Below are positions 1-38,707 of a stretch of 64,000 bases of DNA, in pieces. The stretch's first letter is position 1. Each line of letters opens with the position of its first letter. The stretch covers positions 1,426,001 through 1,490,000 of the forward strand of contig JARGXX010000004.1 of assembly GCA_030374765.1 (NCBI GenBank). Reading direction: 5' to 3'. The notes under the pieces were generated by a model. The model saw only the letters and a list, made by a program, of their open reading frames with translations. It was not told the DNA's origin and searched no databases. Position numbers and translations under genes: made by a program. Origin of the DNA: Agarophyton chilense. Taxonomy: Eukaryota; Rhodophyta; Florideophyceae; Gracilariales; Gracilariaceae.

Positions 1-1378
1 TCAATGCGGTCTCCTCGCGTGATTTTCCACTCCTTGCCCTTACAGCCTTCGACTTCAGGTGTGATGTCGAATGCGGGTTATGTATCCTCCGCTGGGATCA
101 ATCGAGCGCCGTCTCGTCGGGCTCAACGCAGCTATCCACATCTCACGGACTTTGTGGGACGAGACCCTCTCGACGAATCTGACCTCTTCGCGCAGGCTCC
201 CTGCTTCGACCCAGTCGCTCTTCGCGATGACGCGTTGATCAGCCGGTACGTCTTCAGCGGTTACATTCTAGATGGACTTCCTTATGCGGATATCCGCAGC
301 CACAATTGGCTTACTCACCGTGCTTTGCCAGATATCGTGGTTGCCGCCGACGAATGGCGCGGCTTACGCGATGTACGCGATGCGGCACTCTGCTTTCGCC
401 GGCCCCTGCTCCGTGCGGACTTCCACTTCCCTAACAAGAGAGACATTACTTATTGAGATTTTACTCGTTGGGAACGACGTACGAGATCCCGCTTGGGGTA
501 CCTGCTTCCATACCAAATGATCGAGATTGATGGAGTTAGGCGGGATGCTCGCGTCGGGAGGTATGTCGCGCTGCCAGAACAATGGGCGGAGATCGAGAGC
601 CCTCGTGGATGTCCGGTGGAGCATCCTCCTACCATAACCTATATCCGTTCCGCGTTGATTAACGACCCGTTCTCGGGATACTGGACGGTCGTGTTCTCCG
701 AGTTCATTGCTAAGATCGCAGCGTATATCCTCTGCGATGCATACGATACCTATCGTGTTCGGTACATGTCGCCAATAGCGCGGAGATATGCGAGACAACT
801 CGATCTTTCCTTTGTGTTGGGGTCACGTGCCAATTATGACGAATTCCTACTCTTGGTGAACTAGATCGACAGTACCGACCGGCATGGGGTTCCATTGGAG
901 CAATCAGCTAGAAGCACCAACGGTGCGTCATCGAGATCACTCGCCGGGACGCACTGCTATTGCTGGAGATTTTGTATGGTACAATCCCTGGACCAGCCAG
1001 ATAATCAAGCCCGATCAGGCTCGTGACCTTCGTGCGAATCCTAGGGAGTTCCCTTAAAATCAGCGTTCTGGATATTTGTACCAGTCCACACCTTCCGAGT
1101 TTGCAGATCAGGAGTATGAAGAAGCTGCAGGTGCTGATGCAGAACTCGATTTCGAGGATGAAGCTGAACTATTCCGTACTGCGCCAGTAACGGCTGGTTC
1201 GCCACCAACGGCTACGACATCGGGTGTCAATCCGTCGATGGGATACTATCATAGGTTCGCCCAACAACCGAGCGATGCGGAAGATCCCTTTTTGGCACCG
1301 TTGAGACAATTCCTCTTAGACGCGGGTTTCCCAAATCACATCTGCAAGGCGATCGTGCTGCGCTTATCGGCATGCTGA
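1..1378 (+). pseudogene. antisense ORF of Gypsy A (aORF-A), partial and broken
   Basis: Coding remnant on the strand opposite to Gypsy A pol. The N-terminus lies outside the window. Frame 1 is open to TGA at 454-456 and continues in the same frame to TAG at 862-864. After a frameshift, frame 2 carries SPGRTAIAGDFVWYNPW around 938-988, a TAA at 1055-1057, and an acidic C-terminal part ending at 1378. It matches aORF-C at 36.8-38.7 kb in several blocks: LLRADF/IIRAEF, GYLLPYQ/GFFVPYQ, INDPFSGYW/IEDPHSGLW, AAYIL/AAYVL, RQLDL, and AGDF..NPW. No known family is recognised. The conservation with C, B and this copy having different breaks, suggests a once-coding passenger gene of these retrotransposons. 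Confidence 0.7.
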
Positions 1379-1550
1379 ATCATCATACCAGCGGGTAAGT
1401 TCTCTGACAGACTTTAGATGTCGTCAAAACCCTCGAGGCGATAATATAAACCAAATTCTTGTGTTTCCGTGACTTCACATTTCCCTAAGTACTTCTTCTC
1501 GAGTCTTCTCGTCTTCTTCTCTCACATCCTTCTTCTGAAGAGAAAGGGGA

Positions 1551-1832
1551 TTAGCAGCCGCTCCGCGAAATCGCGTCTAGAAAGCCCACTATCGCGGCGT
1601 CGATCTCCGCAGGGAGTGGTACTCGAATGCGACGATGATAACGCACAACCTGCGAGCGCGGGATATGAGTTATAGGTTCCCATGTATCCACTTCCGGAGG
1701 AAACCCGTACCAACGGCTACAATACAGTAGTATGTGGTTGTCTACGTCTTCGCCATGATCGATGATGCGATCTATGACATATTCCTGGGCATTTCCCAAC
1801 GTTTCGTCGGATGGCGAGAGGGTTCGGTTCAC
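1551..1832 (-). pseudogene. chromodomain at the end of Gypsy A pol
   Basis: An open 93-residue stretch contains a chromodomain: EYVIDRIIDH, then a SRWYGFPP segment with the aromatic-cage Trp, then VDTWEP and HIPRSQVVRYHRR. Chromodomains at the integrase C-terminus mark the chromovirus branch of Ty3/Gypsy and are thought to target insertion to modified chromatin. It follows the pol remnant after a broken linker (about 1900-2600) and converges with aORF-A, whose end is at 1378. The equivalent domains of elements B and C are at 8098-8502 and 38945-39120. Confidence 0.8.
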
Positions 1833-1937
1833 TGGCTTATACCGTCTGACAAACTAATGCGTTGAATCCTGACGGGATATGACAACGTTGTTGTTTCCTT
1901 GAACCTTTCGAGAGGGCGCTTGGTAACTCCCTATATC

Positions 1938-4584
1938 TTAAGGTTGAACCTGTGTGGTCTGTTGGGACAGCTGAGGGCCTTCTTGTGCCTCTTTAGCGTC
2001 GTTCTCGGCTTCTGATTGCACAGTCGTCGGGTCTAAGGCAATCCGTTTTTCTTCACGTTTCTTGTTCTGTCTGTCCTTCTGAGGGTTCTGAGCCAAACTG
2101 GGCTTCTTCACCGAGGGTTCGGCCGGGTATGCATCCACCCCCAATGGAGGTTTAGCTTCATCTTCGCTTTCTTCTCTTCGGTCGGCTGCCAAGCGCAATC
2201 GCTCAGTAAGTGGCGTTCCACTTGACGGTTCAACTTGAACGGGTGATGGCGTGTGTGCACCCGCTTCTGGACCGGATATAATTGGATCAATTTTAAAAAT
2301 TTCTTTCCTATCGTCAGGTACTGTGGTCGTACCAGAGTGCTGGCTCTTGCCACGGTGCTTATTCATATTTTCGGAGAATTTTCATTGGATGCCAATGTAC
2401 TGCCGCGCAGCGGGAGATCACGAGTCGTGTCCGCGCCGTGTGCCACGGGAGGCGGATCGTCTGATTCGACGGGTAGCACCCGTTCCTGCCGATAAACAGC
2501 GCTTTCTTTCCCAGTTTCCTGGGGTTAAGAGTTCTCTGAGGCGGTTTCAACGCGATCGCGCGAAAATCGTTCAACGTCTTCTCCTGTCTTCAGGACTACT
2601 GTGTCATCGGTGAGCTCCATTACCTTGAAAGGTCCGGATGATACCGGTAGCGATTTGTAACGTGGTCCATCCTGCTTTTCAGGTCGTTCCATGCGAACAA
2701 ACGCGTATCATTCTACCCAGAGGTCTGACATCTGCCTTCGCCATCGGGCGTCCGAATTACATTTGTAACGCGCTTGCGTTTTTGCATATTCTCGAGCGGC
2801 TTGCTCTGTCCTTAACCTCAGGTCGTTTCTCCACTTCAGATGGCTCTACGTCGGTGTCGGTTTGTCTTCCTCGACTTCGTCCAACCTAATAGGTAGTGAA
2901 GGTAGGCTACCTGATATCACGAGATCAAAAGGAGCCCCCTTTGTAGATGTATGCACTTGTGTGTTGTACGCATAACAGAGTGTTTCTGTGTACATGTCCC
3001 ACTCCTTCGGGTGATCCGCGATGTAATGCCAAAGAGCGGCTAATAACGTATGGTTGTAACGTCCCACCTGACCATCACACTGTGGGTGGTAGGTTGTGGC
3101 AAACACGTTCTTGATGCCCATTATTCGGCAAACGTTCTGAAAGAATTTAGCAACAAACTGCTTTCCAATATCTGATAGCAGAACTTCCGGCGGTCCGTAC
3201 ACATACATCCAGTGTTTAATGAAAGCCTGAGCTATTACCGAGGCGGTTAGCCTCTTCAACGGTACAGTCCGTACAATTTTTTAAAATCAATCCGTAATTT
3301 CAAATAGGTAGCGATACCCTTGATTGGAACGATTTGGCTCTCCAAGTATGTCGATGCTGACGAATTGTACAGGCGCCTTCGCCGGGAATAGGGACATCTT
3401 TTTCCTCCTCTTATAGAGTTTCACGCGATTCATCGCACACGTTCGGCATAGCTTTACCGTAGCACTGCAGTCCATTGCCAACGTTGGCCAATAGAAGTCC
3501 CTTTTTAGGGTCATAAACAACTTTGTTCTTCCTGGGTGTCCAGATAGCTTTTCATAATGGGCCAAGTAGAGCACACGACTCTTCAACGCGTGCGGAACCA
3601 CGATCTGATCATGCTTCTCGAAATGTCTGAGCATTATACCTCGTGACTCGAGCGAAAAGGGCTGATCCTCGCCCCTGTTATGACGACAGCGTATCGTTGC
3701 ACAGAAGTTATCTGTGAGTTGCTCATTGAAGAGCTCAGCGATCGAGATACACTCGAGTTGATCAGAAGGTTCAGTTCCATGGGTTGCCATGAGAGGGTCC
3801 ACTCGGGAGTAATCCTTTTCATTTTCCTGATCTTCAAGTTGCGTTTCATCTTTGTTCATCTCCATTGAGAAACACGGTATATCTTCATCGATTTCTCCTT
3901 GGGTTTCCCTTCAAGTTTCCAATCGCGATAAAGCGTCGGCTTGTATGTTAACCAGTTCCTTCTTATATTTAACTTCTAAATTGAATTCAGATAGGCGTAA
4001 GCGCCAACGTCTTAATCTCCCGGAGGGATCTGTTTTTGATAATAACCATCGTAGGGATGAATGATCCGTATGGATGGTAAACGTTTCTCCCTGGAGATAG
4101 GGTCGTGAAGTAGTCAGCGCCCACACTACCGCAAGGCATTCCTTTTCTGATACTGAGTAATTCTTATTTGCAGCGTTCAGCGTTCGTGACCAGTAACCGA
4201 TTGGTTTCCTCTGACCGTCCGGATGAGTCTGAAAAAGGGCACATCCTACCTGATACTTGCCGGAGTCAGTATCCAAAGAATAGGGTAGGTTGGGTTTGGG
4301 CAATGCCAAGATTGGTGCTGTGACTAGTTTTGTCTTTAAAGTCTTGAAGGCTTCGTGATCGGCGGGTCCGAATTTTTCGAGCTTAACAGGCTGTCCTTTA
4401 CGGAACAATGCGTTCAATATAGCTGCAATATGATAGTAGTGCGGTATGAATCGTCCATAGACGGTACACAATCCAAGGAAGGGTCGCAATTGATTCTGTG
4501 TTGACGGTGGTTGCGATGCTCAGACTGCCGCTGTCTGAGCTTCATGAATTGCAAGCTGACCAGGCCTAATTATGTGGCCCAAGT
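1938..4584 (-). pseudogene. pol: Gypsy A pol remnant: RT end, RNase H, integrase, GPY/F
   Basis: Read right to left. The RT tail (LGHIIRPGQ, 4490-4584) is interrupted by a stop. RNase H at 3911-4489 has ENVYGRFIPHY-like thumb sequence, KPIGYWSRTLN, NYSVSEKECLAV, FTIHTDHSSLRWLL and QADALSRL. Integrase is in two frames (3287-3865 and 2846-3259): zinc-binding HYEKLSGHPG...CRTCA, first catalytic Asp in FVSIDILGE, second in LSDIGKQF (altered from the usual DNG), and Glu position in a GQVGRYNHTL segment where the usual Glu is replaced by Gly-Arg. A GPY/F-like segment (ELTDDTVVLKTG...RFSRDRVE) lies at about 2545-2625. Glu loss, frame breaks and the missing 5' half show that it is inactive. Confidence 0.85.
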
Positions 4585-5251
4585 TGTAGTACCCGCTCTA
4601 ACGGAGAGAGCAGACACCTGCGACAGCGTTCGGACTGCCGATGGGTCGCTTGCGGCGAAGGAAAAGGGGTGGTAGAGCTACATCACCAGCGAGCTGGAAG
4701 TGGGGTGTAAGGCCACTACTCGCCAGCGAGGGTGAACAGTGCAACTGTAAAACGTTGATGGAACGTAGGTATGAGACGGCTCGTGAAGTGGTTGGGGGCT
4801 GACTATCTATTATAGCTCGTCCGGATCTCCGGTTAAGGAATCCTAAGCGAGGAACAGAATAGTCGTGATGCCCATGTTGTCTCCTTTACTTGGAGTCGGC
4901 GCTCACCTCTGGTAGACTATATACTGTGTACCAGGGTGAGTGCCCAAATAAATATATAAATAATACCCAGTGGTCAGCCACTTAGCCAAACCACTGTATG
5001 GGTATGGTCCCTAATGGACGTCTAGCTACGAAGGGTAGTAAAGCCTGCCACGTGGATCGCCAATACATGCGCCGTTGCAAGCCAGTACACTCGTGATACC
5101 ACGTGTTCCACTAATGTACCCTGCCTCCTGGCATCCTACGCGGTGTGCCGTTTCATATCACAAGTTTGATGACATCACTCACTTATGAGTTCCAACCGCG
5201 ACTTCGCAAAAAATCATCCTATCGGATTCCCCGACATAGTAGAATACTACA
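4585..5251. repeat. LTR of family X, copy 1 (667 bp)
   Basis: Starts TGTAGTA and ends ATACTACA, giving TG...CA termini inside a short inverted repeat. It is the reverse complement of the solo LTR at 59289-59955, of the same length and similar throughout by eye, and of the more diverged copy at 13521-14236. The flanks are RT of minus-strand Gypsy A on the left and RT of plus-strand Gypsy B on the right. Flanking pentamers are CAAGT and TCCAA, so there is no target duplication. This suggests recombination or deletion after insertion. Confidence 0.8.
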
Positions 5252-8010
5252 TCCAACACCCATACCGTACAGGCCTGAAGGGTAGGGAAATTATCGCCGA
5301 CCGGATGAACAAAATGGGCAAAGCTCACGTCAGAGAGCCTGTGCCTCCTAATCAATCCGAATGGGCAAGTCCCCTTGTCCTTGCGACTAAAAAAGATGGC
5401 TCCGTCAGGTTCTGTGTTGACTACAGGAAGCTGAACGCAGTAAACAAGAGGTACTCATACCCGATATCCCGTATGGATGACTGTCTAGATTTCTGAGGTG
5501 AAACTGCCGTATTTACAACACTGGACGCTAACTCCGGACATTGGCAGATCCCTTTGGCCGAATATGCGAGAGCGCTGACAACCTTCACCACCTATTAAGG
5601 TCTGTTCAGATTTACTCGTATGCCCTTTGGGTTAAAGAATGCACCAGCAGCCTTACAACGGGTAATGGACATCATACTGTCCAAATTCAAATGGAAATTC
5701 GCCCTGGTCTATTTTGATGACGTATTCATATTCTCACGGACCGTTAAGGAACACCTTCGCAACGTGGAGACGATGCTAACAATCCCACAGGACGCTGTAG
5801 TGACAACGAAACTATGCAATTGCACCTTCTTCCAAGTCTTGGTGGACTATCTCTGTCACGTTGTCCTCCCAAGAAATCTAAAGAAAGCCACACGGACCAC
5901 GAAAGAGATTCTCCAGGCTAAACCTCCCAGACCTCACACGGAACTACGATCCTTCGTGGGCTTGTGCAATGTTTACACACGTTTTGTCCAATAGTTTGCT
6001 AAAATGTCGTCCCCTCTCAACGAAATGCTGAAGATGGGAACACCTTCGGAATTTGAGGCCCTTACCGAAGACCAGTACGAAGCATTTCAGACCCTAAAGG
6101 ACAAATTACTGAACCCACCTATACTGGCTTTACCAAAAGCCAATAAGCCCTTTGTGCTGGACACAGACGCCTCTGATGTCCAAGTGAGATGTACACTGCT
6201 ACAGGAACAAGAGTCACCGAAGGACTATCGACCTATTGGATACTGGAGAATAACGCTCACCAGCGCGGAGCGAAACTACAGTACTACCGAAAAGGAATTT
6301 CTAGCCATCTTATTTTCCGTATTGACACTCCTTCCGTACTTCGAGGGAACTAAGTTTACCATTAGGACAGACCACGATTCATTCCGCTGGCTACTCAATA
6401 TGACCGATGCATCAAGTCGCCTCGATCGTCGGCGCCTCAGGCTGTCCGAATATAACTACGAGATAACCTATAGGCCAGGCATCAAGCACCAGGCAGCAGA
6501 TGCCCTCTCGCAAATCATTACCGACGGAACTGATGACACGCCATTGGGCGACCTCAATTCTACTCCCTTCGCAGATGATGGACCTCAGAATAATACGGAA
6601 ATGGATGACCTTATTGGTATGGTCGAAGTGGATGATCCTGAGGTAAAGGAAAACGAAGTATACCTCTTGGACTGGGAGACATTACCACCTAATTCGACAA
6701 TACCTCAGGTTAATGCGATAACCCCAGAAGAAAAAGAGCTCCTCCCTATAATTATTGAGGAGCTGCTACGAGCGCAGGTCGAAAAAGAGTACTGCAAGGA
6801 ACCGGCCCAGTTGGTAAGAGCCTCTGGATGCTTATTCGACTACGACCGATTCGAACTATTATGTCGCCGCTCTCCAGTGGATAGCGCACTCCAACGGAGT
6901 AGTACCAAGGTCACTAAGGGCGCGATTCCTATACCTCGCCCATTTCCCTCGCTTGGCTGGTCACCCTGGAGGCCGACGAATGTACCAGACCCTAAGACAG
7001 TTCTTCTACTGGCCAATAATGGCGCAGGACCTACTGCAAACCGCACGGAACTGTACTTCGTGCGCACAAATCCGAGGGTCTCGCGCCAACCATCAAACCA
7101 AATTGAAGCTCTTCCCCGCCGCAGGTCCGATGGAATTTGTCACAATGGATATACTTCGGCCTTTACCTAAGTCGTCCCATGGAAATCGAGTTGTCTTGGT
7201 AATAACCGGTAGGTTTACCAAACTTACCAGAGCCCTACCCCTAGGGAAGACAACAACCACGGATGTCGCCACGGCCTTCTTGTCCCACTTAGTATATCCA
7301 TATGGCATGCCACTCTACCTCCTTAGGGATAATGACAGCCAGTTTGTATCCAAATTCTTCTCACACGTTTGCGCTACCTTTGGTATCAAGCATGTGACAA
7401 CCACGGCGTACCACCCGCCAAACCATGGCCAAGCCGAACGCTTCAACCGCACCCTTCTGGACCGATTGGCTCACTACGTATCGGAGCACCGATTGGTCTG
7501 GGACGACTACGTTGAGCCACTGATTTATGCCTACAAGACGCAAGTGCACGTTTCCATGGGGACAATACTTTTCGACCTAACGCTAACGAGATCGCCACCG
7601 CCGATTGCTGTTGACCTTCAGGAGTCTATTACACCCCGGGACATAACCGAAGGAATGACTCTTACGCAGGGGAAGCGCTACTCGCGCCGACGCATCGACC
7701 GCATTATTCAATCGGCTAGAGCTGTACTGAACAAAGCCCAACGGCGCTACAAGGTCAATGTCGACAAAGCCTTCTGGAAAACATCTACCTTTGGGAAAGG
7801 AGAATTATTTTACCTGGACCGGCACTGAAGGACAGTGATGAACTCTAGGACACTACGCGGAAGCTATTACCCCGCTCTACAGGACCATACAAACTCCTTA
7901 AAGCCAATCAACACACCATTATGTTACGAATTGACGGCCTACAAGACACCGTATCTATTGGCCGGGTGACACGAGCCCCCAGCTCTCCCGAATAACCAAA
8001 GTCTTAGCTC
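5252..8010 (+). pseudogene. pol: Gypsy B pol: RT, RNase H, integrase
   Basis: RT runs from QHPYRTG through WASPLVLATKKDGSVRFCVD, TTLDANSGHWQ and MPFGLKNAPAALQR to the catalytic box YFDDVFIF. Stops occur near 5494, 5596 and 5992. The RNase H frame 6004-7170 has VLDTDASD, YWRITL, NYSTTEKEFLAI, IRTDHDSFRWLL and AADALSQ. A frameshift near 6930 moves to frame 6953-7828 with integrase: HPGGRRMYQ...CTSCA zinc finger, catalytic Asp in FVTMDIL, Asp in LLRDNDSQF and Glu in GQAERFNRTL. All three DDE residues are present. After the stop at 7828 a GPY/F-like stretch continues broken to about 8010. The N-terminal cut and the shifts make autonomous activity unlikely. Confidence 0.9.
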
Positions 8011-8097: not shown

Positions 8098-8502
8098 ATG
8101 GACCCGATGGTCTGTGGAAATGACAATGACCCATCTCTCCCGACCGACTCCGATGAATTCGCCTTGCTGGACCACACTCACCTTCCGGAGAATGAACAAC
8201 AACCGGAATACGTGATTGAGCGCATCATCTCCGCTGGTCGGGAAGAGGATGGAACTATGCGCTATCGCGTCTGTTGGTTCGGCCACACCCCTGAGGAAGA
8301 CACTTGGCAAGAGCCTCAAACCATTCCGACTAATTTTATCGCCTGCTATTGGCGCAAAATCGGCAGCACAGAGCGCTTCCTTCATAAGGGGGCAACCATG
8401 GGCCCGGATAATACCAAAACGCTTCCCAAATCGCCTCCCGACACGACAATTCGCCGTAGCGCCCGCATCAGGGAACAAAGTCAGTCCTCAGGCGCCACCT
8501 GA
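8098..8502 (+). pseudogene. chromodomain tail of Gypsy B pol
   Basis: An open 134-codon stretch starting with ATG, but probably the downstream end of pol. The chromodomain core reads EYVIERIISAG, YRVCWFGHTPEEDTW and QTIPTNFIACYWRK, with the Trp of the aromatic cage and the EDTW motif. It ends in a basic tail with RRSARIREQS. The next recognisable coding sequence, aORF-B, is on the other strand and begins to be readable from 8642, so the two genes converge as in elements A and C. Confidence 0.8.
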
Positions 8503-8641: not shown

Positions 8642-11290
8642 TCAAGGTTTGCGAAAGCGCTCCGAACACCAACAGGACTCATTGTGGCGGCCCAAGAGTA
8701 ACTCTGTCGTCTTCATTGGAACCTGGCGGAGCGAAACCGGGACAGGGTCACCGGGGCAGTCTACTGTACCGATAGGACCGGCCCGAGAGAGCCGAGCTCG
8801 CTTTTTCGGCGGAGATTCACTTGCCGAACTCTTGTCACCATCGAAAGCCTCCCGGTCGCTCAAATTTAGATTATCCCGGGCATCCAAGTCGGCAGTAACT
8901 CTCTGGGACATCATGTGTGCATTCTGCTGCAGTAGATGGACCATAGCGGTCTTCAGATTTTGACCTTATTGGACAACCGCGGCGTAGCGCGCCGAGCGAC
9001 GCGCCCAGGAGCAAACTTTCCTCAAGACTGTCGCAATGTCCATCGGGGCAGGAATACCAACGATACGGCAGATATGACGGAGATCCGTGGCTGCAGCCTT
9101 GGCCGAAGTAGGAAAATGCGAAAATGGAGAGGACAGAGCGATTTCGACGCCCCCAGTGGACGTTTGAGGCAGATCATCACCTACAGGACTTTCGGCCTCG
9201 ATAGTGACCTCGCCAAGAGAGATGTCCACTTGGGCGACGGGCGGCTCATATGAGAGTTCATCCTGAGGAGCAGCGCCCGGAGGAGCTGGAGGAGGGGAAG
9301 CGATCGGAAAGACAACAGAGGATTCGACCGGAGGGTTGACGCCCTCCACGGGTAGGACGAAGGGATCTTCCCTGAAGTATTCTCAATCGGACACACCAGC
9401 TGGAACGAACGGCGTGGCATCCACATCAGGCTCTAAGCATAGGGGATCGAAACCAATGGCCTTCGGGTAATAGTCGGGCACATGACGCCTCGGAATGTCC
9501 GATGGTTGATTCTCCAAAGGCTTGTCGGGATAGGAACAAGCGTCGTCCCGGCCCTGCGGATGCAGCGGACTCGGCGTGAACGAGTCGGTATCGTAGTCAT
9601 ACCAAAGGAATACGGGAGTCTCGCCCGACTTCACCTGTAAAAGATGATCCAAAAAGGCCTCGGCCTCCGCGACGGCTAGCTGGGTCTCATGGACGATATT
9701 CTAGATGCCCAGGATGCTTAGGAAACGGATCATGATGTCCGGAAGCGGGATTAGACGACCTAGAGGAAGGGGAATGTTCTCGTTATGCCATACCCTGCAA
9801 TCATCCGAACGGGCATTACCACGCCCTCCGTACTTCGCGGTATCCAGGAAGACCATAAGGGACATCACGTCGAACTCAACGAAGAGTACCTGCCAGGACA
9901 GTCAAGATCTTCGGCCATTGTCATCGCCCGTGCGTTGGGACGAACGATACGCCACTACGGACGGCGTGGGAACCAAAAAGAGCTGCGAGATAAGCCAGTA
10001 CAGCCCCCATTGGTTCTCATCCATGTGAGGAAGCGAGAGATATAACGGAGGACGTTTGTCTGCGCTCATGTCGTGAAACTCCACCTGGGGCCAACAGAAG
10101 AAGAACTACAAAGATTGACTCAAACGACCATCGGGCTCATGCATCTCGTTCCATTAGACTCTATTGGACATCCAAAACACGCTGCCATACGGCGGTCGGA
10201 AGCAATGAGCGCCAAAAGGTTGTTATCCTTCGAAGGATATCTCACATGAGGCGAGATGAAGTTCGCGTATAGGTCGGAGAGGAGTTTGTTCACCCTGAAC
10301 TGGTACTAGGCTTCCTTTTCGCAGCGAACGTACGGCATATTTGCTTGGATGGGGGTGCGACAGCGCGTCGCCGAACGCGGATCCACAGGACAATGCAACC
10401 AACGGTTATATCACAAGACTCTGCGCGCGTTCTTACTGCCCCTCCGGAAATTGGGGATGTTGGCGAACTTCCGCGCGTCGATATACATATGACAGAACCT
10501 CTGGTATTCTTCCACAGATAACGGCAGAACGGCATGACGCACTGCCCGTGGATTTCGTCCGATGGTATGGTCAAAGCGGTCCCCGTGGCCCTCATAAGCC
10601 ACTTTGAATGCTGAAGAGCTCCCGGCTTGGTTGTTTAAAGTAATGGTGCCGCTGAACACAGGTTGGTCCACCGGGAAACGGATAGGAAAAACCGACGGAA
10701 GGGAAAAGGTCCAGAGGGAGAATAGCATATCCCACAGGCTTATAAGGCGAGTTCGGCATCGCGCGCGACCAATGGAAAAGTACCACGATGGGAAGACGAG
10801 GTGACGGAGTTGACCTGAACGGAATGACGGCCGTAAACCACGGTGGACGAAGCGCGGAGGGTCGCTAAAGGAAGAACGGAAACTAAGGAAGGCCCCAATG
10901 ACCGTCAGAGGAGGAGAAGACAATGAACCGCCTCGGCAACGCAACGCGAGGAATGCGCTGGCGATGCACCTCTGGCCAGCGCTCACGGCGCGTGGGAGTT
11001 TCAGTCCTTAGGTAAAGTAATTTCCCTCCGGCGCAAATGGTCAGCTCACGTTACCCAGCCTCCCCGCAGTCGAAGACGAAGCGACGTCCCGTCGCGCCCA
11101 ATGGTACCGAGAGCGACGAAGTGCTCGCGTCTCCTGGGTCAATCATGAGGCCATCTGGACTTCGCCGTGACGGCCGAATCCTAAGGAGGGAGGTATGTGA
11201 AGAAGAAACGATACGGGTGGAGCCCTGTAAACCGCCAGACCCTGAGGGAACTGACAGATGCCACGTAGACTGGCCGACCTCAGCTGGACT
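8642..11290 (-). pseudogene. antisense ORF of Gypsy B (aORF-B), decayed
   Basis: Minus-strand coding remnant downstream of Gypsy B pol, with many stops and shifts. Matching blocks to aORF-A and aORF-C, read right to left: PVFSGTI near 10670 (A has YVFSGYI), RPPLYLSLPHMDENQWGLYW near 10020 (C has PPVVSYLGSFLIEDPHSGLW), AVAEAEAFLDHLLQ near 9670 (C has NNADEAQELIEIIRRF), SGETPVFLWYDYD near 9610 (C has LAGDFIFFNPW), and a C-terminal part ending in a Ser-rich tail with a basic KKRARL cluster near 8800. The order of the blocks is the same in all copies. No family is recognised. Upstream of about 10990 the reading is uncertain. Confidence 0.55.
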
Positions 11291-11291
11291 G

Positions 11292-11600
11292 ATGTAGATT
11301 ATTCATTTATTTCAATTAGTGTAATAGATTAGCATTACAGTGCCAGAGAGATGCCAGCGCCTCGCCATTACTATTTACTTGGCTCGAGTGACGCTTCTCC
11401 CTTAGAGTAAGGTAAGCACTGTTAGGATACTAAATAACCCCCTTTGGTATATTAGTCCCACCAATTAGTATTCAAGCCATAGTTTCCGTAGCTCCAACCT
11501 GTAGGACTACGCAGTAAACGCCAGCCCATTGCACCAAGTAATCTGGGAGTGCCGCCGTCAAGGATTCGAACCTTAGGACCCGCTCTACCACGCTACTACC
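11292..11600. repeat. possible partial 3' LTR of Gypsy B
   Basis: AT-richer, non-coding stretch between the start of aORF-B and the 3' remnant of Gypsy D, beginning TGTAGATTATTC. Position is the main argument: in element C the LTR begins just upstream of the aORF start. No second copy is present in the window to prove it. Confidence 0.3.
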
Positions 11601-11625
11601 GGTCGAGACCAGTACGCTGACCCAC
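11549..11625 (-). other. tRNA-like remnant with box B
   Basis: On the minus strand a T-arm reads TAAGG-TTCGAAT-CCTTG with five paired bases and contains an exact pol III box B, GGTTCGAATCC. It is followed by ACGGCGGCA, which looks like an acceptor 3' strand. A box A-like TAGCGTGGTAGAGC lies only about 10 bases upstream, so no normal anticodon arm fits and no matching 5' acceptor strand is seen. Best read as a tRNA-derived fragment or SINE-like piece rather than a working tRNA. Confidence 0.3.
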
Positions 11626-13520
11626 CAGTCCTTTCGTTACACCCCCGCTAAGACGAGAGCACGTGTCACGCAAGAAATATATTGTTTTGCTGCTCATTGA
11701 GGAGCTCCGTGCACGAGATTTGCTCGAGTCGATCTTAAGGGTCAGTATCTGCCAATGCAAGAATGGAGTCTGCATCCGAACAATCATAAAGTGTTTCTTG
11801 TTGTTCTTCTTTCGAAGATTATGAGTGGTCATCCATGTAAAAGAATGGTATTTCTTTATAGATTTCTTCTTCGGTTTGGCCCCAATGTTTTGAGTCGGGA
11901 TAGAGCATCGGCGTGGAAATTAGCTAGTATCTTCGACTTGGAAATTTGCTAGTTCTTTCTTGTACTTCGTTTCGAAACCAAGTTCAGAAAGACGTGAAAT
12001 CCATCGTGTGAGACGACCGGAGGGGTCTGTGTTTGACAGTATCCATTGTAGAGACGAATGATCCGTCTTGACGGTAAAGAGTTATCCTTGTAGATATAGT
12101 CTAAAAATGGTTAGAGCCCAGACGACTGCAAGGCATTCTTTTTCTGAAACGGAATACTTTTTTCCAGCTTTGTTCACAGATTTTGACCAGCAACCAATGG
12201 GTTCACTTTTACCATACGGTGTGTTTGGAAAAGTGAACACCATACCTGGTAAGAACTAGAGTCGATATCAACTGAATATGGTAAATTGAGGACGGGTAGC
12301 GCTAGGACTGGAGCTTTAGTAATTCTTTGCTTCAGCTTTTCAAACGCTTTTCATTCAGCTGATACGAATGGTTTAAGCTATACTAGGTGTCTTTTACGCA
12401 AAAATTCGATGAGCGATGCCGCTGTTTGTGTGTATCGCAGCAAAAAGCATCTGTAGACATTAGATAAGTCAAGAAAAGAGCACAATTACATCTGTGTAGA
12501 CGGAAGTTGAGCCTCGTGGATAGCTGCTTTTTGTGCTTCCTGAAGATCAAGCTTCCCCGGCTTGATCACGTGTCCCAAATACCTGAAGGTGCCAGCGAAC
12601 AGTCCGACCTTCTTAAAATTCAAGGTGACACCTGCAGTTTGTACTGCTTTGAAGATCTCCTACAAAAGCCGGAAATTGCTTCCACAACTTGGGAAAAGAT
12701 AATGCCATCGTCTAAATTGACTAAACAAGTCTTCGACTTAAAGCTTGGCAGCGAAATTTCCAGAGTAAACTGGAAAGTAGCTGGTGCGTCGGTTGAACCA
12801 AACGGCATCCTCTTGAAACGGTTGAGTCCGGCTTGACACGAGAACGCGGTTTTGTTCTGGTTTTCTTCCGCTACGGACAACTGCCAATAGCCAGGGTTAG
12901 CGTCCAACGGGGTGAACACGTTTGATTGTGCTTAATTGTCAATATATTCGTCCATTCGGAGCAACGGGTACGTATCTTTTAACAGTAGTTGCGTTCAGTT
13001 TTCAAAACTCGATTCAGAATCATAAAGAAACATTGGCTTTTGGAATCAAAACTGCAGTTGACGCCCAAGAGAATTGAGCTGCTTCTTTGACTGCTTCTTC
13101 CAGCATCTTGATGATATCTTCCCCCTGAATTTGACGAGTTCGAGGTCGCGATCTGTAGGGTGGTTAAAAGATGGGTGGAGATCGTGGAACAGGATTGATA
13201 TAATGGTTTATATTGGAGATCTCTCCTATCCTCTTACTACATATGGAAACATACGTCTTAAGCATTAACTTGATATTGATTCTGTAGTGGTCCGACACAT
13301 GGGCTAAATCTAGCTCATCAAGCAAGCTCTCTGGATCTTTTGCGGATGGCAATTGATTTCCAGACGGAGTTTGAGTATCTTCTTCTTTGTCACCGACATG
13401 GGTCAATCCCAATACGTCTGCAGTAGAGAAATGAGTACAGATCACCGTTTTTGGGTAAGGAAAAGCTATTACAACAACCTGATTCCTCGGTATATGATAA
13501 TGGGCTTCTGTGAAGTTATT
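11600..13520 (-). pseudogene. Ty3/Gypsy D pol remnant: linker, RT, RNase H
   Basis: Minus-strand fragment of the same lineage as element A (RNase H tail KYKKELANFQ against KYKKELVNIQ in A). From right to left: protease-RT linker (13164-13520; IPRNQVV, STADVLGLTHVGDKEED), RT beginning (FSWASTAVLIPKAN near 13040), RT core 12620-12919 (TPLDANPGYWQLSV, RMPFGSTDAPATFQ, and NLDDGI where YLDD is expected), then a broken RNase H to about 11600. Gag, protease and integrase are absent. It is cut on the right by LTR X copy 2. Confidence 0.75.
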
Positions 13521-14236
13521 TGTAGTATTCTGTTTCGCCGGCCAAATCGATGGGATAATTTATCGCGAAGTCGCGGTTGAATCGCTGAAGTGAGCAGTGT
13601 GCTCAATAGGATGATGTGACTCGGCGATCTGCACAAGGTTGCCTAGAGGCTGGATGTATTAGTAGAAGATGGTTTGGCAATGTTCCAGTGGCTTGCTACG
13701 GCACACGCATTGGCAACCCTTCTTAGAAGAATGACATATTGACAACGCCATATTTAGTGGCGATCCACGAGTCAGGTTTTACTACCGTTTATAGTTAGAA
13801 GTCCGTTAGGGACCATACACGTACAGTGATTTTGCTTTGTAACTGACTACTGGGTATGATTTACGTACTTTTTCGAACCTCATCATGGTACACGGTATGT
13901 AGGGTACCAGAGATGAGCTCAGTCTCCAAGGTAAAGGAGGGAACATGGTTATCATGACTCTTCTGTTACAGCCTGAGGACTCCTTAACCGGAGATCGGGA
14001 GAAGCTATAATAAAGAGTCAGCCCATAACAACTTCTCGAGCTACATCGTTTACTTCTTTCTATTCGCCTTATAAATTGTACTGTTCACCCTTGCTGGGGA
14101 GCAGTGGCCTTAAAACCTAATTTTGGCTCGCTGGTGTTGTAGCTTTAGCACCCTTTTCCCCTTCGCCTCAAGTACCATATCGGCAGTTTGATCACTGTCA
14201 TATGTGTTTGCTCTTACAGAAAGAGCTGATACTACA
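13521..14236. repeat. LTR of family X, copy 2 (716 bp, diverged)
   Basis: Begins TGTAGTATTCTG and ends GATACTACA, in the same orientation as the copy at 59289-59955 but visibly more diverged and slightly longer. Conserved blocks include GTGGCGATCCACG, CTCCTTAACCGGAGATC and GCTCGCTGGTGTTGTAGCT. Flanking pentamers TTATT and CAGAC do not match. As at copy 1, the left flank is a minus-strand Gypsy and the right flank a plus-strand Gypsy. Confidence 0.75.
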
Positions 14237-22035: not shown

Positions 22036-22057
22036 CTTCTTTTTCTTGTTTGGGTAG

Positions 22058-22540: not shown

Positions 22541-22709
22541 TTGTTTAGACTCTCACGGTTGACTAGCATCGGCGAACACTAGCAAAGATAGATGGTAGCG
22601 CTTTGAATCATTTGGTCTCTTGAACTGGATCGTACTTCCCAATTTTCTTCAGTGAACGAAGAAGGTTCGTTTGGGTGATCAGATGATTTACAGTAGGGCT
22701 AGGGATTTT

Positions 22710-23737: not shown

Positions 23738-24088
23738 ACCAGACCCTGGAGCACCTCTCCAAGTCTCATCATGGAGGTCAAGCGTTTTCTGTTCTCCATC
23801 GTCATAGTTGAGTTCTTACCGGTCTCCATCTTCAATATGGCTCACCACTGTACCTGTAAAGAATTTGTCATCCAATGGCCAATAAACTTCAATGGTGCCA
23901 CCAACATTAGGCATCAAGGGAAGATTTGTATCTGAAGAAGTGCCATGAATCTGAAGGGGGCTGGAGAAATCTGCATCAAATGATGCGGGGTTCGGAAGGG
24001 TCTGGTCCAGAACTTGATTGGCATCAGGGGAAACAAGCTCATTGTCAATGTTCAGTTGCAGTTGCGAATCGAGTTCATCGATCGATTC

Positions 24089-25169: not shown

Positions 25170-25199
25170 TTCCGAAAAAGAGCTGTACTGAATGTAGCA

Positions 25200-25699
25200 A
25201 TGGATATCGTGATCAACGAGTTGAATAAAAAATACAGCATCTGGGCTGGTCGGTAGTGTAACAGATTTTATTCAATATGCAGAATGTTGCAAAGACTAGT
25301 AACATTTCGTCCAACAACTCACTGCGACGAGCCCTCTATGATGAGATGGTGGATGTGGACAGGCATTCTTGATGTCGAGAAAGCGGTCATTAAGGCAGAT
25401 CCAATGATGCGCTTCGGTTCACTGGCATGTTCTCCTGATCCATATTGCCATTTGGGCCGGTCTGCTACAACATCATGGAGCGCATCAAAAGTTCCAGAAC
25501 ATCTGGGAAGCAGAAAAGGTTGAACCATTTTGAACTTCTCGAGTCCAATACCCCTGTAGGCCGCTGCGTCGTCCAGTAACGGTCTAAAATTATTGAGAAC
25601 AGAATCATCTGATCCAGTAACGTGAGCCATGTGGAAAGTTATGGTCTTGTTCTTCCCTGATCTTTCATTACCTTTCGCAGGATTTGAAGTCGTCTTCAA
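25200..25699 (-). pseudogene. Copia 1 protease (retropepsin-like)
   Basis: The open part is 25319-25699 and continues past a stop at 25319-25321. The active-site region reads FRPLLDDAAAYRGIGL, so the usual D-[ST]-G-A is LDDAA. HIHHLIIEGSSQ followed after the stop by VVGRNVT fits the second half, where ILG is common in retropepsins. The unusual site may be a lineage feature or a lesion. Confidence 0.6.
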
Positions 25700-25732
25700 A
25701 GAGCCATCTTCGTTGTGCTCAGAAACCCAATT

Positions 25733-26500
25733 TCACATCTGTTTGCACATACAAAACTTACTCTTGGAATTCAGATCCGCCAATTGTTTAGCAATGAAAG
25801 TGCGCTTCTTACGTCCAAATGAGCTGGTACTTCCAGAACTAGCCTGTACTGAACGTTGCAAAGAACTTTCTGAACCTTTAGGCCGATCGCATTGCCGAAT
25901 AAGTGAAGCCATGTATGAATATGACAAGGACTTCAGGCATTCATCAGTCGTAGAAGAGGCATCAAACGATTCATCACGAGGTGCGGAAGCGGCGAGAACC
26001 GATATTCGCTGATTCGGACCAACGGAAGCATTTTCCATCAACATGAAAGCAACCAATGCGTCTGGAAGTTTTGGCTTGCTGGAATGGGAGTTGAACTTGG
26101 ACCCTTGGGCCTCGATTCGTGACTCGAAGTTCTTGAAAGTCTCTGTTGAACCACGCTTGGTGTTCAGTAGATCCAGAAAGTCACTATAAACTGCACTTAC
26201 GACGGCCAGAGCGTCACGTTTGTGAAGAGCATTAACGATTTCTTCAACGCCATCACTTTTCTGAATCGTCGAAGAGGGTATTATCATACAAAAATCACTT
26301 GCGCGACCAAACAACTGTGAGATTAGCATGATTCCCTGAAGTTCTTTCGGTATCTCGCTCGAGTTTGAATCAGGTAGTCTATCATGTAACGAATTCCAGA
26401 GCGTTACGGAACGAGCTTATTGGTCTTGGTCGCCTTTCCCGTCAGTTCAAGGAACATGGCGGATATCCCACGAAAATTACGGCCGAGAAGGTAAATCTGA
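25733..26500 (-). pseudogene. Copia 1 gag
   Basis: The open part 25733-26329 codes 198 residues with a gag-like helical region (HKRDALAVVSAVYSDFLDLL, ESRIEAQGSKFNSH, LPDALVAFMLMENA) and a basic C-terminus FGRKKRTFIAKQLADLN. It ends with CMCKQM-stop-NWVSEHNEDG, resembling a degenerate zinc knuckle (C-x2-C...H). No ATG is clear at the N-terminus; reading upstream to 26500 is broken. Confidence 0.6.
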
Positions 26501-26533
26501 AGCGCCGGTGGCTGGGCCCATAACTAAAAACGC

Positions 26534-27115
26534 TGTGATAACAAACAACCTGTAACGTGTTGCCCGATCTAGACGTTTGGCCCCGACGGTCCAAGATGGA
26601 CGTTTGGCCACTGTTGTCTGATACGGACGTTTGGCTTCTACACTGCGCTCAATTACGAGCACTGGTACGGTGCAGCACTACATTTTGGATTTTTGGTGAC
26701 TAGAAGGCAGGAGGCCAAGTAGCTAGAACGAGTAGTACTTAAGACCATAGCAGCGCGACACCGCAACAGTAAAACGTCGGTAGCTTTGACGAACCAACTT
26801 CTGCATCTACGATAAGATAACGTAACAATGAGAGTGATGTATCGAACAAACGGTAGCGTAGTGTAGTAGCAGTTTAACTTCGATCGATCTCGTTCTTGTG
26901 AGATCAAGCATCATGGGTAAGCTATATATAGTATTCTATAGTATTTATGTAGTCTACGATGGTTCCAAATGTGGAAGAACTTCCAATCAGGTGAGCCTCC
27001 TTTAAATAGCGGGATATCCGAAAGGGCCGCAGCCCCAACGAGATGCATATGCGTCTAAAACGGCTTCGTAACCATCCCAAAGAGGTGACAGCAACTGTAG
27101 CTCTTGATAATGTCA
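26534..27115 (-). repeat. 5' LTR of Copia 1 (582 bp)
   Basis: Plus-strand start TGTGATAAC and end AATGTCA. It contains the full set of blocks of the left LTR plus about 265 bp not found there, including three GACGTTTGGC units spaced exactly 27 bp apart (26572, 26599, 26626). CTGGGCCCA at 26512-26520 may be the tRNA primer site, although it sits 13 bases from the LTR edge. Confidence 0.75.
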
Positions 27116-27295
27116 CTCATTTCCTCGCTAGTATCGTAAAATATGCTTTCCAGCCTGGAAATACCACATTAAATGAATACAAAATGCCTGAGAAACAATC
27201 GTTACTTCATTAAAAATGTCCGAACGTGTGCCAGTTGATATAAACAGCAAACATACCAGGCGTTCCTGATATATTCTCTGATTAAATGCATCATG

Positions 27296-28406
27296 TCAAC
27301 ACTTCGAGTAGTCACAGCACTTTACCATTGGTACCAAAACCGGCCTGTAGTTTTCCATACCGAGCCGTCCAATCACGGCAGAAATGTAATCTTTCTGCTG
27401 AAGGAAAGCACTGTTTTCTCTTCTCAGAAATATAATATCTAGAAATTGGGAAAAACAACCCATATATTTGGCATCGAGAAACCTTGAAAATCGTTTCACG
27501 CCAGCTTCTAAATTATGTGATCGGGGTGAAGTGATGATAATATCATCGACATAGATCAATAGCCATGTATCGTGCGTGAAATAGACGCACTCATCAAAAA
27601 GCAGAGGTGTGAACCTCATGTTGCGCATGAATTCCTTCCACTTCTCATGCAACTTGCGAGGAGCTTTTCTAATCCATGAAAGGTCTTACGAAGTTTGAGA
27701 ACTTCTTCGGGACGACAAATGTTCAAACCTCTAGGCGGCAAATTGTACACAGTCTCTTCAATGTTTCCATGTAGGAATGCATTCTTAATTTACATCTGTT
27801 CAATAGAGGATCCCTTCTGAACTGCTATTCCAATAACCAGTCTCACCGTATTGAAGTCCTTCACGGGCGCATATGTTCGATGTACAAAACCCTTCATATA
27901 TCCTCGGACGGAAAGGCGAACATTTTAGCGCACAGTAATACCATCAGAATTTGTCTTTCGAAGGAAGACAAACGCCTCTCAATGTGTTTCACATCTGTAG
28001 TGCGAGGTATTCCAACCCATGTCCGATGACCACGCAATGACGTAAGTTCTTCATCATTTGCAGATTTACACTGTACAGCATCACGATGCAAAAGGTCTTC
28101 GTTCACAATAGATAAATCACGGTAAGGTTGCTGCACAGCCATGTTTGCTGTTTCTGGTTTAAATTGTTTCAGAGCATTGCGTACACGTCTGAGATACCTG
28201 CTGTTCTCATGACTCATTTCGTCTTTCTTTTCTTTGTTATAAACATAGCCATCTCGAGCAGTGCGATATGTTGATGGCTTCTCACGGTAATGAGTAATAA
28301 ATTCCTTAATTTCATTATCGATATTGTTTCCAGTCTCGTTACCGTGCACAGCACCTTCAGATATTTCATCGTACGTCTTCTCTGCAATATTCAATTCCTT
28401 CTTCAA
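27296..28406 (-). pseudogene. Copia 2 reverse transcriptase
   Basis: Read right to left: a linker ending DAVQCKSANDEELTSLRGHRTWVGI (27894-28406), then HRTYAPVKDFNTVRLVIGIA, IKNAFLHGNIEETVYNLPPRG and LKLRKTFHGLE (27660-27900), and the catalytic box LLIYVDDIIITS (27296-27652). These are canonical Copia RT motifs. Stops and shifts occur near 27790, 27660 and 27894. The 3' end runs into Copia 1 at 27115. Confidence 0.85.
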
Positions 28407-30760: not shown

Positions 30761-30768
30761 TCAGCGTT

Positions 30769-31157: not shown

Positions 31158-31159
31158 CC

Positions 31160-32510: not shown

Positions 32511-32512
32511 TT

Positions 32513-32637: not shown

Positions 32638-32639
32638 CT

Positions 32640-33146: not shown

Positions 33147-33149
33147 CGT

Positions 33150-34434: not shown

Positions 34435-34439
34435 CTATT

Positions 34440-35050: not shown

Positions 35051-35057
35051 TGAACCA

Positions 35058-35894: not shown

Positions 35895-36803
35895 TGAGCT
35901 TGGGGCGGGGGGCGGAGGGGGGGGGGGCTTGGAGCGGAGATACCACGAAGATGTTCGGGATCTTCCTCTCTTGAGAGACACGCCTCAGACGGAGGAGTCG
36001 CGTCCCAGCGGAGCACAGAAACAGAGCCACTCTGGAAAGGCACGACGAAGTCTGGTGTAAGACCGAGGCCAATCCGGCGGGATATACCTAGAGTGTTTAG
36101 GTGAGCACGGCACAGTCCGGGGTGTGACCAATCAAAGGCGGAGCGGTATCACGGCGATTGTCGGAAAAGAAGCGAGGAAACACTTGTATGAGGTGGACGA
36201 ACGAGGTGAGTGAGGCGGCCACTCACGAGAGCCAAAAAGGAGAACAAGAGAAAAACGGGGGCGAAACCCTATACGGGAGCGAGACTACGACAAGTGTCGG
36301 CGATTAAATATGAACCCACGGTGGTGGTAGCACTCTGGTCGACAGAGGAGTGGATGAACTAACGTGCCACGAGCGCTCAAGCAGTATGCGGTGAAGACGC
36401 GCCGAAGGCGAAAAGTTCAGAGCCAAGACTCCCTCCTTGGTATCTCCCAAGAGGGTCTTTACTGGGGAGCAGTGCTCAACCTCCTAAGTAGTGTGGCGCG
36501 CGGCCCCTGACAGTGGGCGCGCGTCCGAAAAATAGACACTAAATAGCGATAGCGTAGATAAATAAATACTAAAAATCACTAAATAATACTAACCATTAGG
36601 TAGAATCCGGGCCATGTGTGGCACGCCCCGCAGTCTAGCGTCGGCATCCGTGCAGTCCACGTGTTTCACCAGTGTGCACTTCCAGTCCTAACCGGCCGTC
36701 GGCTCTCCATAGCGGTATAGCTTGTCATAGACCAAGCTAGTCCTCAAGCGAGCGAAGTCTATTAGTCCTGGGAAGAAACCCCCTTGAAGGGCATTGCACT
36801 TCA
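35895..36803 (-). repeat. 3' LTR of Gypsy C
   Basis: TGAG...TTCA, about 909 bp. From 35928 it matches the right LTR with scattered substitutions over its whole length. The outermost 33 bp (35895-35927) are a G-rich run not matching the right copy. The inner edge lies 35 bases upstream of the aORF-C start codon. Confidence 0.85.
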
Positions 36804-36838
36804 TATCCCTCTCCTTAGGTGACGAACACGCCGTCGAC

Positions 36839-38707
36839 ATGGCGGGGAGGCAACGGTCCAACCGGCATAAAAGCGAGCCGTGTAACGCGTCCAGCGACCA
36901 CTCGACTATCGAAGGCAGAGCTGCACAACCGAACGACAAACGCACCAACGCGGTAACCACTCCTCGAACTTCGAGCGCTCTTCCGCCTCGTACGTCAACT
37001 TCCCGCGACCACATTCCGATACCTCGGCGACCAGTACTCCCGATTAACGGTGGTAACAATCCCCGCCGGGGTTACTTCTCCGGTTTCCATTCAGCTCCTT
37101 CTCCGCGGGAGAGTGCCTCGTCAACCGCGCAGAGCCGATCCCGGTGTCCCGTTGAAGCTTCAAGCCACATCACTCCTGCGGAGAACATCCCGCCCACTTA
37201 CGACGAACTCGTCGGGATAAACCCGCGTCAACATGCGGTGATTCTCCGGAGAGCTCCGTGGTTCCATCTGACAGCGGTCTTCGACAAAGAACTCGTGGCG
37301 TTGTATGCTGATGGCAATGCGCGTCTCCCGGGCGAGCTGCCGGCTTTGATCACCACTTCGTGGGGCTGGCGACGCCGTGTGGCGGTTCCCGTTCACGAGA
37401 TTCTGCGGCGAAGGCGCGAGTCGGCGGAAGAAGCGCATTGTTTATTCGTCCGCACCGGCCACTCACGGATCAACCGGGCAAACTTTCAATACCCCATCCC
37501 CGACGAGTTCGGCTTCGACCTACGGATGTACCGGACGCAGGGTGAGATCGCCTATTGTGACCGCCTTGCGGCGTTGGAAACTTACGCATGGCGCGGCCAA
37601 CCACGAGCGCGTCAAGAAGCGATCTGCTGGGTCCGTCCGATCATTCGTGCTGAGTTCCGTCACCTTCGTCGTGAGTCCCGATATCGGTGGTTACACAACT
37701 TTATCTGCGAGGAGCGTCGGGGCAGATCCCGCTTTGGGTTCTTTGTCCCTTATCAGAACACGGAGATAAACCGGATTAGTCCCTTCTATCAGTTTGGGCT
37801 ATACGTTCCCCTGCCTGGGTGGTGTTCCTCCGTCGAGGTGTGCCGGGGATGTTACGCGGAGGTGCCTCCAGTCGTCTCCTATCTGGGCTCGTTTCTCATC
37901 GAGGATCCGCACTCCGGCTTATGGTCCGTGATCCTAACCGAATGGGCAGTCCGCGCCGCGGCGTACGTCTTGTGGGAAGCCTAAGACCAGTATCGACTGT
38001 GGTATCTTCCTCCGCGTTTGGGTGGTTACATCCGGTAGCTGGACCTTCAACTCCCTCTTGGAGGTGTCAATAACGCTGATGAAGCTCAGGAGCTCATCGA
38101 AATCATTAGGCGTTTCGACTGGGCTGTCGTGCCTGTCCGGCAGAGCGGTCGTGGCCAAGAAGCCGGTGGGGCTGATCGGTCTCCGGGGCGTCGCACGCCG
38201 TTGGCGGGAGATTTCATCTTCTTTAACCCATGGGAGCATCAAGAGATCTCCGAGGCGGAGGCGTCGGCACTATGGATGGCTCCGCGAGGCATACCATTCG
38301 GGCACCCCGTAGGGTTTGTCAATTCGGATGACTTCTACTACGCCTATGGCGGTGATGATCTCCTGGAGGAGGCGGGCGAATACCGGGGCGACGAGGTCAT
38401 GGAAGAAGTGGGAGACCCCGAAGGTGTTGATACTACGGCGCAGCCGGCGCAGGGAGGGACTCAGGCAGGTGCGGTCATCGATCCAGTGGCCGCGGCGTTG
38501 CCGGACGAACCGGAAGTTATCGAGGTTCCCATACGCCCAGAGGCGGTCGTGATCTCCCAGTTGCTTCGGGGTGCTGGACTGAACGTGCAAGGGGCTAGTG
38601 GCGACATCGGTACGATGAGAGACGCCCTCGTGGCACGCCTCACCGGCGGGGGTAACTCCGCTAGCGATTCGGCTGGCGCGCACGGCAATCCGGGTTCTTC
38701 CAACTAA
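36839..38707 (+). pseudogene. antisense ORF of Gypsy C (aORF-C), two stops
   Basis: Plus-strand frame starting with ATG at 36839, GACATGG context, 36 bp inside the 3' LTR. It is interrupted only by TAA at 37982-37984 and TAG at 38036-38038, staying in one frame for 623 codons to TAA at 38705. N-terminal 110 residues: Ser/Thr/Arg/Pro-rich, disordered. Middle: Trp/Arg-rich globular part (WFHLTAVFDKELVAL, TSWGWRRRVAVP, WVRPIIRAEFRHLRR, GFFVPYQNTEI, FLIEDPHSGLWSVILTEWA). C-terminal: LAGDFIFFNPW, an acidic segment (YGGDDLLEEAGE), then QLLRGAGLN. At both stops aORF-A has sense codons (Tyr, Gln). No zinc finger, DDE or envelope pattern is seen. Family unknown. Confidence 0.75.

Follow-up and report, generated by a model that had tools for sequence, protein, structure and literature searches.

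An antisense gene family, lysine-poor in its main branches, in chromoviruses of the red alga Agarophyton chilense

We describe a family of antisense open reading frames (aORFs) carried by Ty3/Gypsy chromoviruses of the red alga Agarophyton chilense, three of which, elements A, B and C, lie in a stretch of 64,000 nucleotides (contig JARGXX010000004.1, positions 1,426,001 to 1,490,000; hereafter the window, whose coordinates are used throughout). The aORF keeps a fixed position, convergent to pol, its protein is under purifying selection, in lineage C it starts beside the 3' long terminal repeat (LTR), and in lineages C and D and a relative from Gracilariopsis chorda it forms a lysine desert. 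Comparison of sequences and profiles shows homology across four lineages (A, B, C and D), so that the aORF reads as one protein family. We consider it probable, though well short of certain, that this chromovirus group has in the aORF a genuine accessory gene coding for a protein, whose product would be a soluble helper acting in trans, driven by the LTR and shielded from ubiquitylation.

Descriptions of accessory ORFs that run antisense in LTR retrotransposons go back to the 1990s, with a first citation from 1997 (PMC7264820), and no function has been assigned to them. The present family adds a further setting: red algae and chromoviruses, with hundreds of copies, many of them open, in several diverged lineages. 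A start against the 3' LTR predicts an antisense LTR promoter, while a selected lysine desert predicts a link to ubiquitin or protein stability, and both features make the analogy with retroviral accessory genes testable outside retroviruses. Searches of an open-access literature library listed no paper that describes antisense ORFs in retroelements of red algae.

One protein family in a convergent position

The genome searched was the 80-Mb, 135-contig assembly; lineages A, B and C are named after the window aORFs, and D is a further lineage, none of which was seen in the window. All three window copies are broken pseudogenes, and the case for a gene therefore rests on the other genomic copies. 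The aORF of element C (36839..38707, + strand) has 622 codons and a stop at 38705-38707, with a conserved ATG at 36839, 3 lysines and in-frame stops at 37982 and 38036; an open frame of 637 codons at locus L006 aligns end to end with 36794-38704 (+) at 86% identity. The aORF of element A (1..1392, +), located by tblastn and delimited from longer matches via locus L023, has its 5' end beyond the window and is disrupted by two in-frame stops, one at 454 and the other near 862, and by a shift to another frame near 935. The C protein matches it at 355-939 (frame +1) and 935-1078 (frame +2), with E = 6e-43 and 42.5% identity over 200 residues. The aORF region of element B (8645..10986, −) consists of several broken frames and is a remote homologue of the others. 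Queries with C, P0001 or P0002 (G. chorda BWQ96_03215) gave no tblastn match to B in the window at E ≤ 0.01. However, a profile of six B relatives aligned by hhalign to a profile of 29 A/C/D relatives with a probability of 95.5, E 1.4e-8 and a score of 73.6. Because this score lies far above the top scores of column-shuffled (27.1, 100 shuffles), block-shuffled (37.6, 100 shuffles) and reversed (14.3) controls, B is homologous yet remote.

The first-pass annotation had proposed a gene shared by A, B and C, recognizable by ordered sequence blocks. The shared gene is borne out, by tblastn for A and C and by profile alignment for B. The family match survives a proper alignment, but MDENQWGLYW, the block given for B, falls outside the I-x-[DE]-x-x-x-G-[LY]-W block of A and C, whose counterpart in the profile alignment is LMGDDNDRSSW. 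Likewise, the AGDF/NPW block is present in A and C and not clear in B.

Lineage D is closest to the G. chorda protein (57-71% identity), and the frame is preserved among C, D and P0002 at 45-62% identity. Judged by identity, the A-, C- and D-type sets of places do not overlap, because the A query matches copies of C and D at only 43-48%. Among A. chilense proteins (P0003-P0008), P0003 and P0004 are C-type, with 88-90% identity to a C copy, and the B-type proteins showed 58-75% identity in the B search. At the D loci examined, identity to C was 65-67% for RNase H-integrase (full-length matches), 75-81% for reverse transcriptase (RT) and 43-46% for the aORF, which indicates that the aORF evolves faster than pol.

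At least 326 aORF places are listed in the genome (at least 150 A-type, 105 C-type and 71 D-type). Among the matches listed, the matched stretch has no internal stop at 52 of the 71 D-type places, some of them exact duplicates, and at 26 of the 105 C-type places. The C query comprised only the first 396 codons, and thus the window copy, whose stops lie later, counts among the 26. Some copies have stop-to-stop frames of 611 codons in A, 638 in D and 658-667 in C.

The convergent layout downstream of the chromodomain, likewise part of the original annotation, is confirmed for the window elements and recurs elsewhere: a chromodomain or pol lies on the opposite strand at 44 of 45 A/C/D loci (38 of 39 distinct places, as six D places are present twice) and on the same strand at none, so the copies do stand beside Gypsy elements. 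The sole exception, L007, has neither chromodomain nor pol in its flank. For B, the linkage is visible at two places, the window and L053, and six other loci showed no chromodomain in their short flanks. Among the matches listed for both sets, opposite-strand pairs join 60 of the 105 C-type aORF places to 60 of the 116 C-type integrases, with a start offset of 3.2-3.8 kb in 57 of these pairs; a single pair lies on the same strand. Both LTRs and pol were located for element C of the window, where the aORF sits between the chromodomain and the 3' LTR, antisense to gag-pol. The 701 bases at the presumed site of the D 5' LTR hold no such repeat.

That the aORF is a captured host gene, carried along without serving the element, seems to us rather improbable. 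Retroelements are known to capture genes, the G. chorda protein is annotated as hypothetical, and a divergent single-copy paralogue in the host is conceivable, but hundreds of copies in four lineages, in a fixed place and under selection while replicating, point to a benefit for the element, and protein searches (8000 candidates scored in each) matched only Gracilariopsis, Agarophyton and one further entry. No phage relatives were found with P0002 as query, and none of 20 pattern matches in IMG/VR was confirmed.

Selection on the protein and depletion of lysine

The annotated suspicion of selection on the aORF in this lineage is supported by the ratio of nonsynonymous to synonymous substitution rates (dN/dS). 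Over 120 pairs of 16 D copies, dN/dS was 0.58, and 0.52 on gap-free columns, compared with 1.02, 1.06, 0.91, 0.92 and 0.65 in the other five frames. These copies came from 20 D loci of 8 kb, with L037, L039, L040 and L049 excluded for another start or a cut frame. The A sublineages (L051 and L054-L056, four of 13 A loci) gave 0.15-0.16 at a dS of 2.1-2.3, near saturation, and a B pair gave 0.43. Values in the aORF are thus away from 1 and the frame is kept. The 0.65 of the −1 frame of D speaks against too simple an interpretation, though that frame holds 18.5 stops per sequence.

The distribution of variants over codon positions separates two phases in the life of a copy. Variants private to one D copy, which mostly arose after insertion, are flat across the three positions (84, 84, 89), whereas those in two or more copies favour the third (12, 13, 29; Fisher p = 0.013); therefore, selection acts on the protein while lineages replicate, and the gene decays after insertion. 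Counted by codon, the agreement is weaker (private variants, 90 synonymous and 188 nonsynonymous; shared variants, 22 and 23; p = 0.042), and eight C copies lean in this direction too (private 76, 68, 90; shared 16, 15, 31; significance not computed). As yardsticks we used pol pieces from those of the 20 D loci that a coverage filter retained: RNase H-integrase (10 loci) showed the same shift (private 50, 27, 46; shared 1, 2, 9), and RT (18 loci; 24, 26, 34 and 5, 6, 9) and protease (PR; 11 loci; 44, 27, 55 and 5, 6, 11) a weak one. Protein-level constraint, a criterion for antisense aORFs of the plant type (aORF-3R), was therefore found in the red-algal frame.

An open frame of 394-417 codons complementary to the aORF occurs at 14 of the 20 D loci of 8 kb (L031, L032, L034-L036, L038-L044, L048 and L049). 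It was considered as the true coding strand of D and rejected; since dN/dS in that register (frame −0) is 0.91, against 0.58 in the aORF, it looks incidental.

The lysine counts come from the same 16 D copies and from the rows of the A/C/D alignment (17 D, 2 C). Lysine numbers 2-3 in the 620 residues of the two open C copies, 1 in 617 in P0002 and 2 in 488 in P0001; 13 of the 17 D rows have 1-2, and the other four 3, 4, 6 and 7. Lysine 7, near the start, is retained in 15 of the 17 D rows and in P0002. The longest lysine-free run is 610 residues in P0002, 487 and 608 in C, 289-590 in the D rows (584-590 in 8 of 17) and 160 in A L051. All of these qualify under the published definition of a lysine desert, a continuous lysine-free region of at least 150 amino acids or 50% of the sequence (PMC10665810). 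The desert is not a feature of the whole family, because it is absent in B (11-12 lysines, not lysine-poor for its composition) and partial in A (4-8 of about 610 residues, below the composition expectation). These counts place its origin, or its tightening, in the branch formed by C, D and the G. chorda protein.

Base composition, from high GC content or strand bias, might by itself explain the low lysine with no link to ubiquitin, and to this account we assign a small chance. The aORFs of C and D have 60-64% GC and 10-11% arginine, and by the definition above up to 10% of eukaryotic proteins contain a lysine desert (PMC10665810). However, composition predicts about 9-12 lysines, against 2-3 in C and 1-2 in seven D copies (Poisson 4e-4 for at most one at 10.2 expected), and gag and pol pieces of the elements hold 2.3-7.8% lysine, D gag and pol keeping 3.4-4.3% at 57-61% GC. 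Within the coding frame of four C/D copies, the lysine codons AAR number 1-3 and the asparagine codons AAY 19-23, compared with 3-18 AAR in other frames; adding A L056 gives 1-4 and 16-23, and A L055 has 8 and 15. Dinucleotide avoidance is thus not the cause, because AAY is normal while AAR is scarce in the same frame. Nor does mutation avoid lysine, since 8 of the 188 nonsynonymous D singletons lead to it, against a neutral expectation of 3.8%.

Divergence shows a different picture. Lysine is found in 0 of 426 differing states between D and P0002, 1 of 598 between D and C and 1 of 598 between C and P0002 (for the first two, Fisher's test gives p of about 7e-5; these three comparisons are interdependent), and in 30 of 440 between the pol genes of C and D. 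These data support an exclusion of lysine from the aORF protein by selection. Several observations pull the other way: three of the 17 D rows hold 4-7 lysines, A and B have the higher counts given above, two of the 23 shared nonsynonymous D variants are E>K, and cysteine and tryptophan are likewise rarer in fixed differences than in new mutations. Ordinary constraint could thus account for part of the lysine signal, although no loss of this kind is seen in the pol genes of these elements.

Expression, product and relation to known systems

The start of the aORF lies close to the 3' LTR. For element C, where the LTR edges were measured, the 3' LTR (35929..36803, −; approximate bounds) is followed by a gap of 35 nucleotides (36804..36838), within which lies the complement of a purine-rich tract (TATCCCTCTCCTTAGG), and then by the ATG, which leaves almost no room for an internal promoter. 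This motif beside the LTR stands 28 nucleotides from the ATG at 7 of 8 C loci, 39-40 at 24 of the 28 D loci (at 19 of 22 places once duplicates are merged) and 17 in A L051, and the remaining C and D loci carry it with point changes. An antisense promoter in the 3' LTR would be the simplest model for expression. Set against this model are the facts that expression and promoter are read from geometry, that the LTR edges in D and A are inferred from the common motif and not measured, and that the exact motif is absent from all six other readable A loci (L023-L025, L027-L029). As several of these six have a variant of the motif without that ATG, translation may begin further in in part of lineage A.

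The proteins of A, C, D and P0002 share an N-terminal part in which, by eye, serine and proline abound, a core some 350 residues long that includes invariant W, Y and R positions, an acidic stretch in the ninth tenth (net −10 to −16) and a short conserved end, FL...G[LF]......GD; in B L053 an acidic stretch stands earlier in the sequence. Pfam gave no match to the aORF at E up to 5 or 10, neither UBL, UBA or RING nor any other domain, and PDB sequence searches returned nothing better than E 0.4 (CCDC81 at E 0.4 and RPB4 chains at E 0.67-1.1, both judged chance). SAP-like and UBA-like readings of the C-terminal motif were dropped as unsupported. The C-terminal 57 residues are predicted with modest confidence to form a helical hairpin (predicted local distance difference test, pLDDT, 65).

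In the reading that we favour, the aORF, antisense to gag-pol, fills the interval between chromodomain and polypurine tract, and its mRNA would start in the 3' LTR on the antisense strand. The product would be a soluble helper acting in trans, regulatory or anti-silencing, intracellular and probably nuclear, and neither an envelope nor an enzyme of the known pol set. Its lysine desert may serve escape from ubiquitylation, giving the protein a long life or allowing it to work beside ubiquitin ligases. Some structural results sit uneasily with this proposal. AlphaFold2, run on 29 sequences, gave a mean pLDDT of 34.6 over the whole protein, with no detectable fold or family, and comparison of the C-terminal hairpin with PDB structures returned one meaningless row and no usable match. 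Runs resembling a nuclear localization signal occur only in C (RRRR) and B (KKRAR), and thus argue only weakly for nuclear action.

In the B product, the sequence PPKKRAR, which resembles a classical nuclear localization signal, occurs at L053:472-2265 (−) near residue 555 and in the window at 8645-8965 (−); the A. chilense proteins P0006 and P0007 have PPKKRAP and PPKKRAQ.

A more specific role is conceivable, although we hold it to be unlikely: a lysine-free adaptor, driven by the 3' LTR, could turn the host ubiquitin system on a silencing or restriction factor, having shed its own lysines to avoid being destroyed with its target. Retroviral Vif, Vpu and Vpr offer a parallel, as they too act on the host ubiquitin system. 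A structural or Env-like protein is very improbable. The interval between pol and the 3' LTR is the usual site of env-like genes and the size would suit, but env-like genes are expected in sense orientation and the aORF lies on the strand opposite pol; A, C, D and P0002 have no 19-residue window with a Kyte-Doolittle value above 1.5, leaving no transmembrane-like stretch there; and the Pfam and PDB searches found no such relative. The more hydrophobic stretch of B, at 1.73-1.89, weighs against the soluble product favoured above. The least probable account, already ruled out in large part, is that the element is regulated by antisense or double-stranded RNA and only incidentally has an open frame there: such regulation is discussed for elements of this kind (PMC7264820), the convergent layout would yield overlapping transcripts and the complementary frame of D is often long, but selection acts at codon level in the aORF frame and not in the complementary register, the frame is kept among C, D and P0002 despite their divergence, and exclusion of AAR beside normal AAY in one frame is hard to explain without a protein.

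The first-pass annotation also compared the gene with antisense ORFs of Grande and Retand, and this comparison stands for the layout and no further. Plant aORF-3R genes (Grande gene23, RIRE2, Retand ORF4/TRP28) are likewise antisense, placed between pol and the 3' LTR, kept across copies and without an assigned function (PMC7264820, PMC11963269). However, Retand elements are described as non-chromoviruses (PMC11963269), whereas the red-algal carriers are chromoviruses, with PF00385 over the cut-off beside A L051 and C L005. The Retand proteins carry TRP28 (PF04195), which Pfam did not find in the red-algal protein, and a genome search for this domain gave no match over the cut-off, the best reaching 20.2 bits against 26.2. 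Grande and RIRE2 are non-chromoviruses as well. For Grande gene23, a promoter of its own upstream of the gene is reported, which contrasts with the 35 nucleotides between ATG and LTR in C. Nowhere does PMC11963269 use the word "lysine".

HBZ of human T-cell leukaemia virus type 1 (HTLV-1) and other retroviral antisense genes also lie antisense at the 3' end. HBZ is small and has a bZIP domain. Such genes are expressed from antisense promoters in the 3' LTR (PMC10186651, PMC7264820); the likeness of the red-algal aORF to HBZ, with its promoter in the 3' LTR, is one of geometry. An antisense ORF in Boty, a Gypsy element of the fungi Botrytis and Sclerotinia, provides a case outside plants (PMC7264820), likened here by layout. 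With respect to lysine, the aORF protein resembles BAG6, RAD23A, UBQLN, San1 and Slx5, ubiquitin-proteasome proteins with long lysine-free stretches (PMC10665810). Lysine deserts are tied to such proteins, and added lysines raised the ubiquitylation of some; as in the deserts described there, arginine is not depleted and the desert is kept between diverged relatives (PMC10169902). Unlike them, the aORF protein is encoded by a retroelement, with no UBL, UBA or RING domain detected. We therefore regard the family as varying a layout already known. We found nothing that relates it to the plant TRP28 proteins, and LTR adjacency and the lysine desert set it apart.

The window elements and their surroundings

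The window elements combine the order RT, RNase H, integrase with a chromodomain at the integrase C-terminus, as chromoviruses do. Element A has its chromodomain region at 1569..1850 (−; via L023 2604-2885), convergent to the aORF, and its integrase, RNase H and the 3' part of RT at 2495..4582 (−); gag and the 5' part of RT were not found in the window. Its relative L051 scores 28.5 bits against PF00385 (cut-off 25.1). Element B comprises a pol fragment (5254..7828, +) with the start of the RT region, RT, RNase H and integrase, and a chromodomain (8209..8352, +) which at 22.0 bits falls slightly below the same cut-off.

Element C is the best preserved of the three. Its 5' LTR (46152..47027, −; approximate bounds) and 3' LTR are 94% identical over 877 aligned columns with one gap, and no clear target-site duplication was seen. 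The chromodomain (38974..39120, −; bounds approximate, from translation) contains an in-frame stop, and its relative L005 scores 27.1 bits against PF00385. Pol (39384..43913, −), with a frame for PR and the RT start, then RT, RNase H and integrase, lies in several broken frames. The gag frames (44066..45975, −) are assigned by position; the one scanned, 45343-45975, gave no Pfam match above the cut-off. For the D element L032, Pfam gives RT, RNase H and integrase but, at E ≤ 0.01, nothing for Chromo; a chromodomain in D was detected solely by tblastn with sequences of the other lineages.

Several neighbouring features were also seen. Behind the B aORF and on the same strand, 11600-13517 (−) holds a degenerate PR, RT and RNase H of another Gypsy element, which we do not assign to B. 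There are three copies of a repeat about 640-670 bases long (4585-5251, 13521-14157 and 59289-59955); the first copy, inverted relative to the third at 96% identity, separates the truncated elements A and B. Broken frames at 21740-28406 (−), which we take to resemble a Ty1/copia element, are accompanied by a 292-base direct repeat (92%) at 21740 and 26818. By eye, a 171-residue frame at 57755-58270 (+) may resemble a Harbinger-type DDE transposase, and a frame beside a D element, at L038:6815-7999 (+), may resemble a piggyBac-like transposase.

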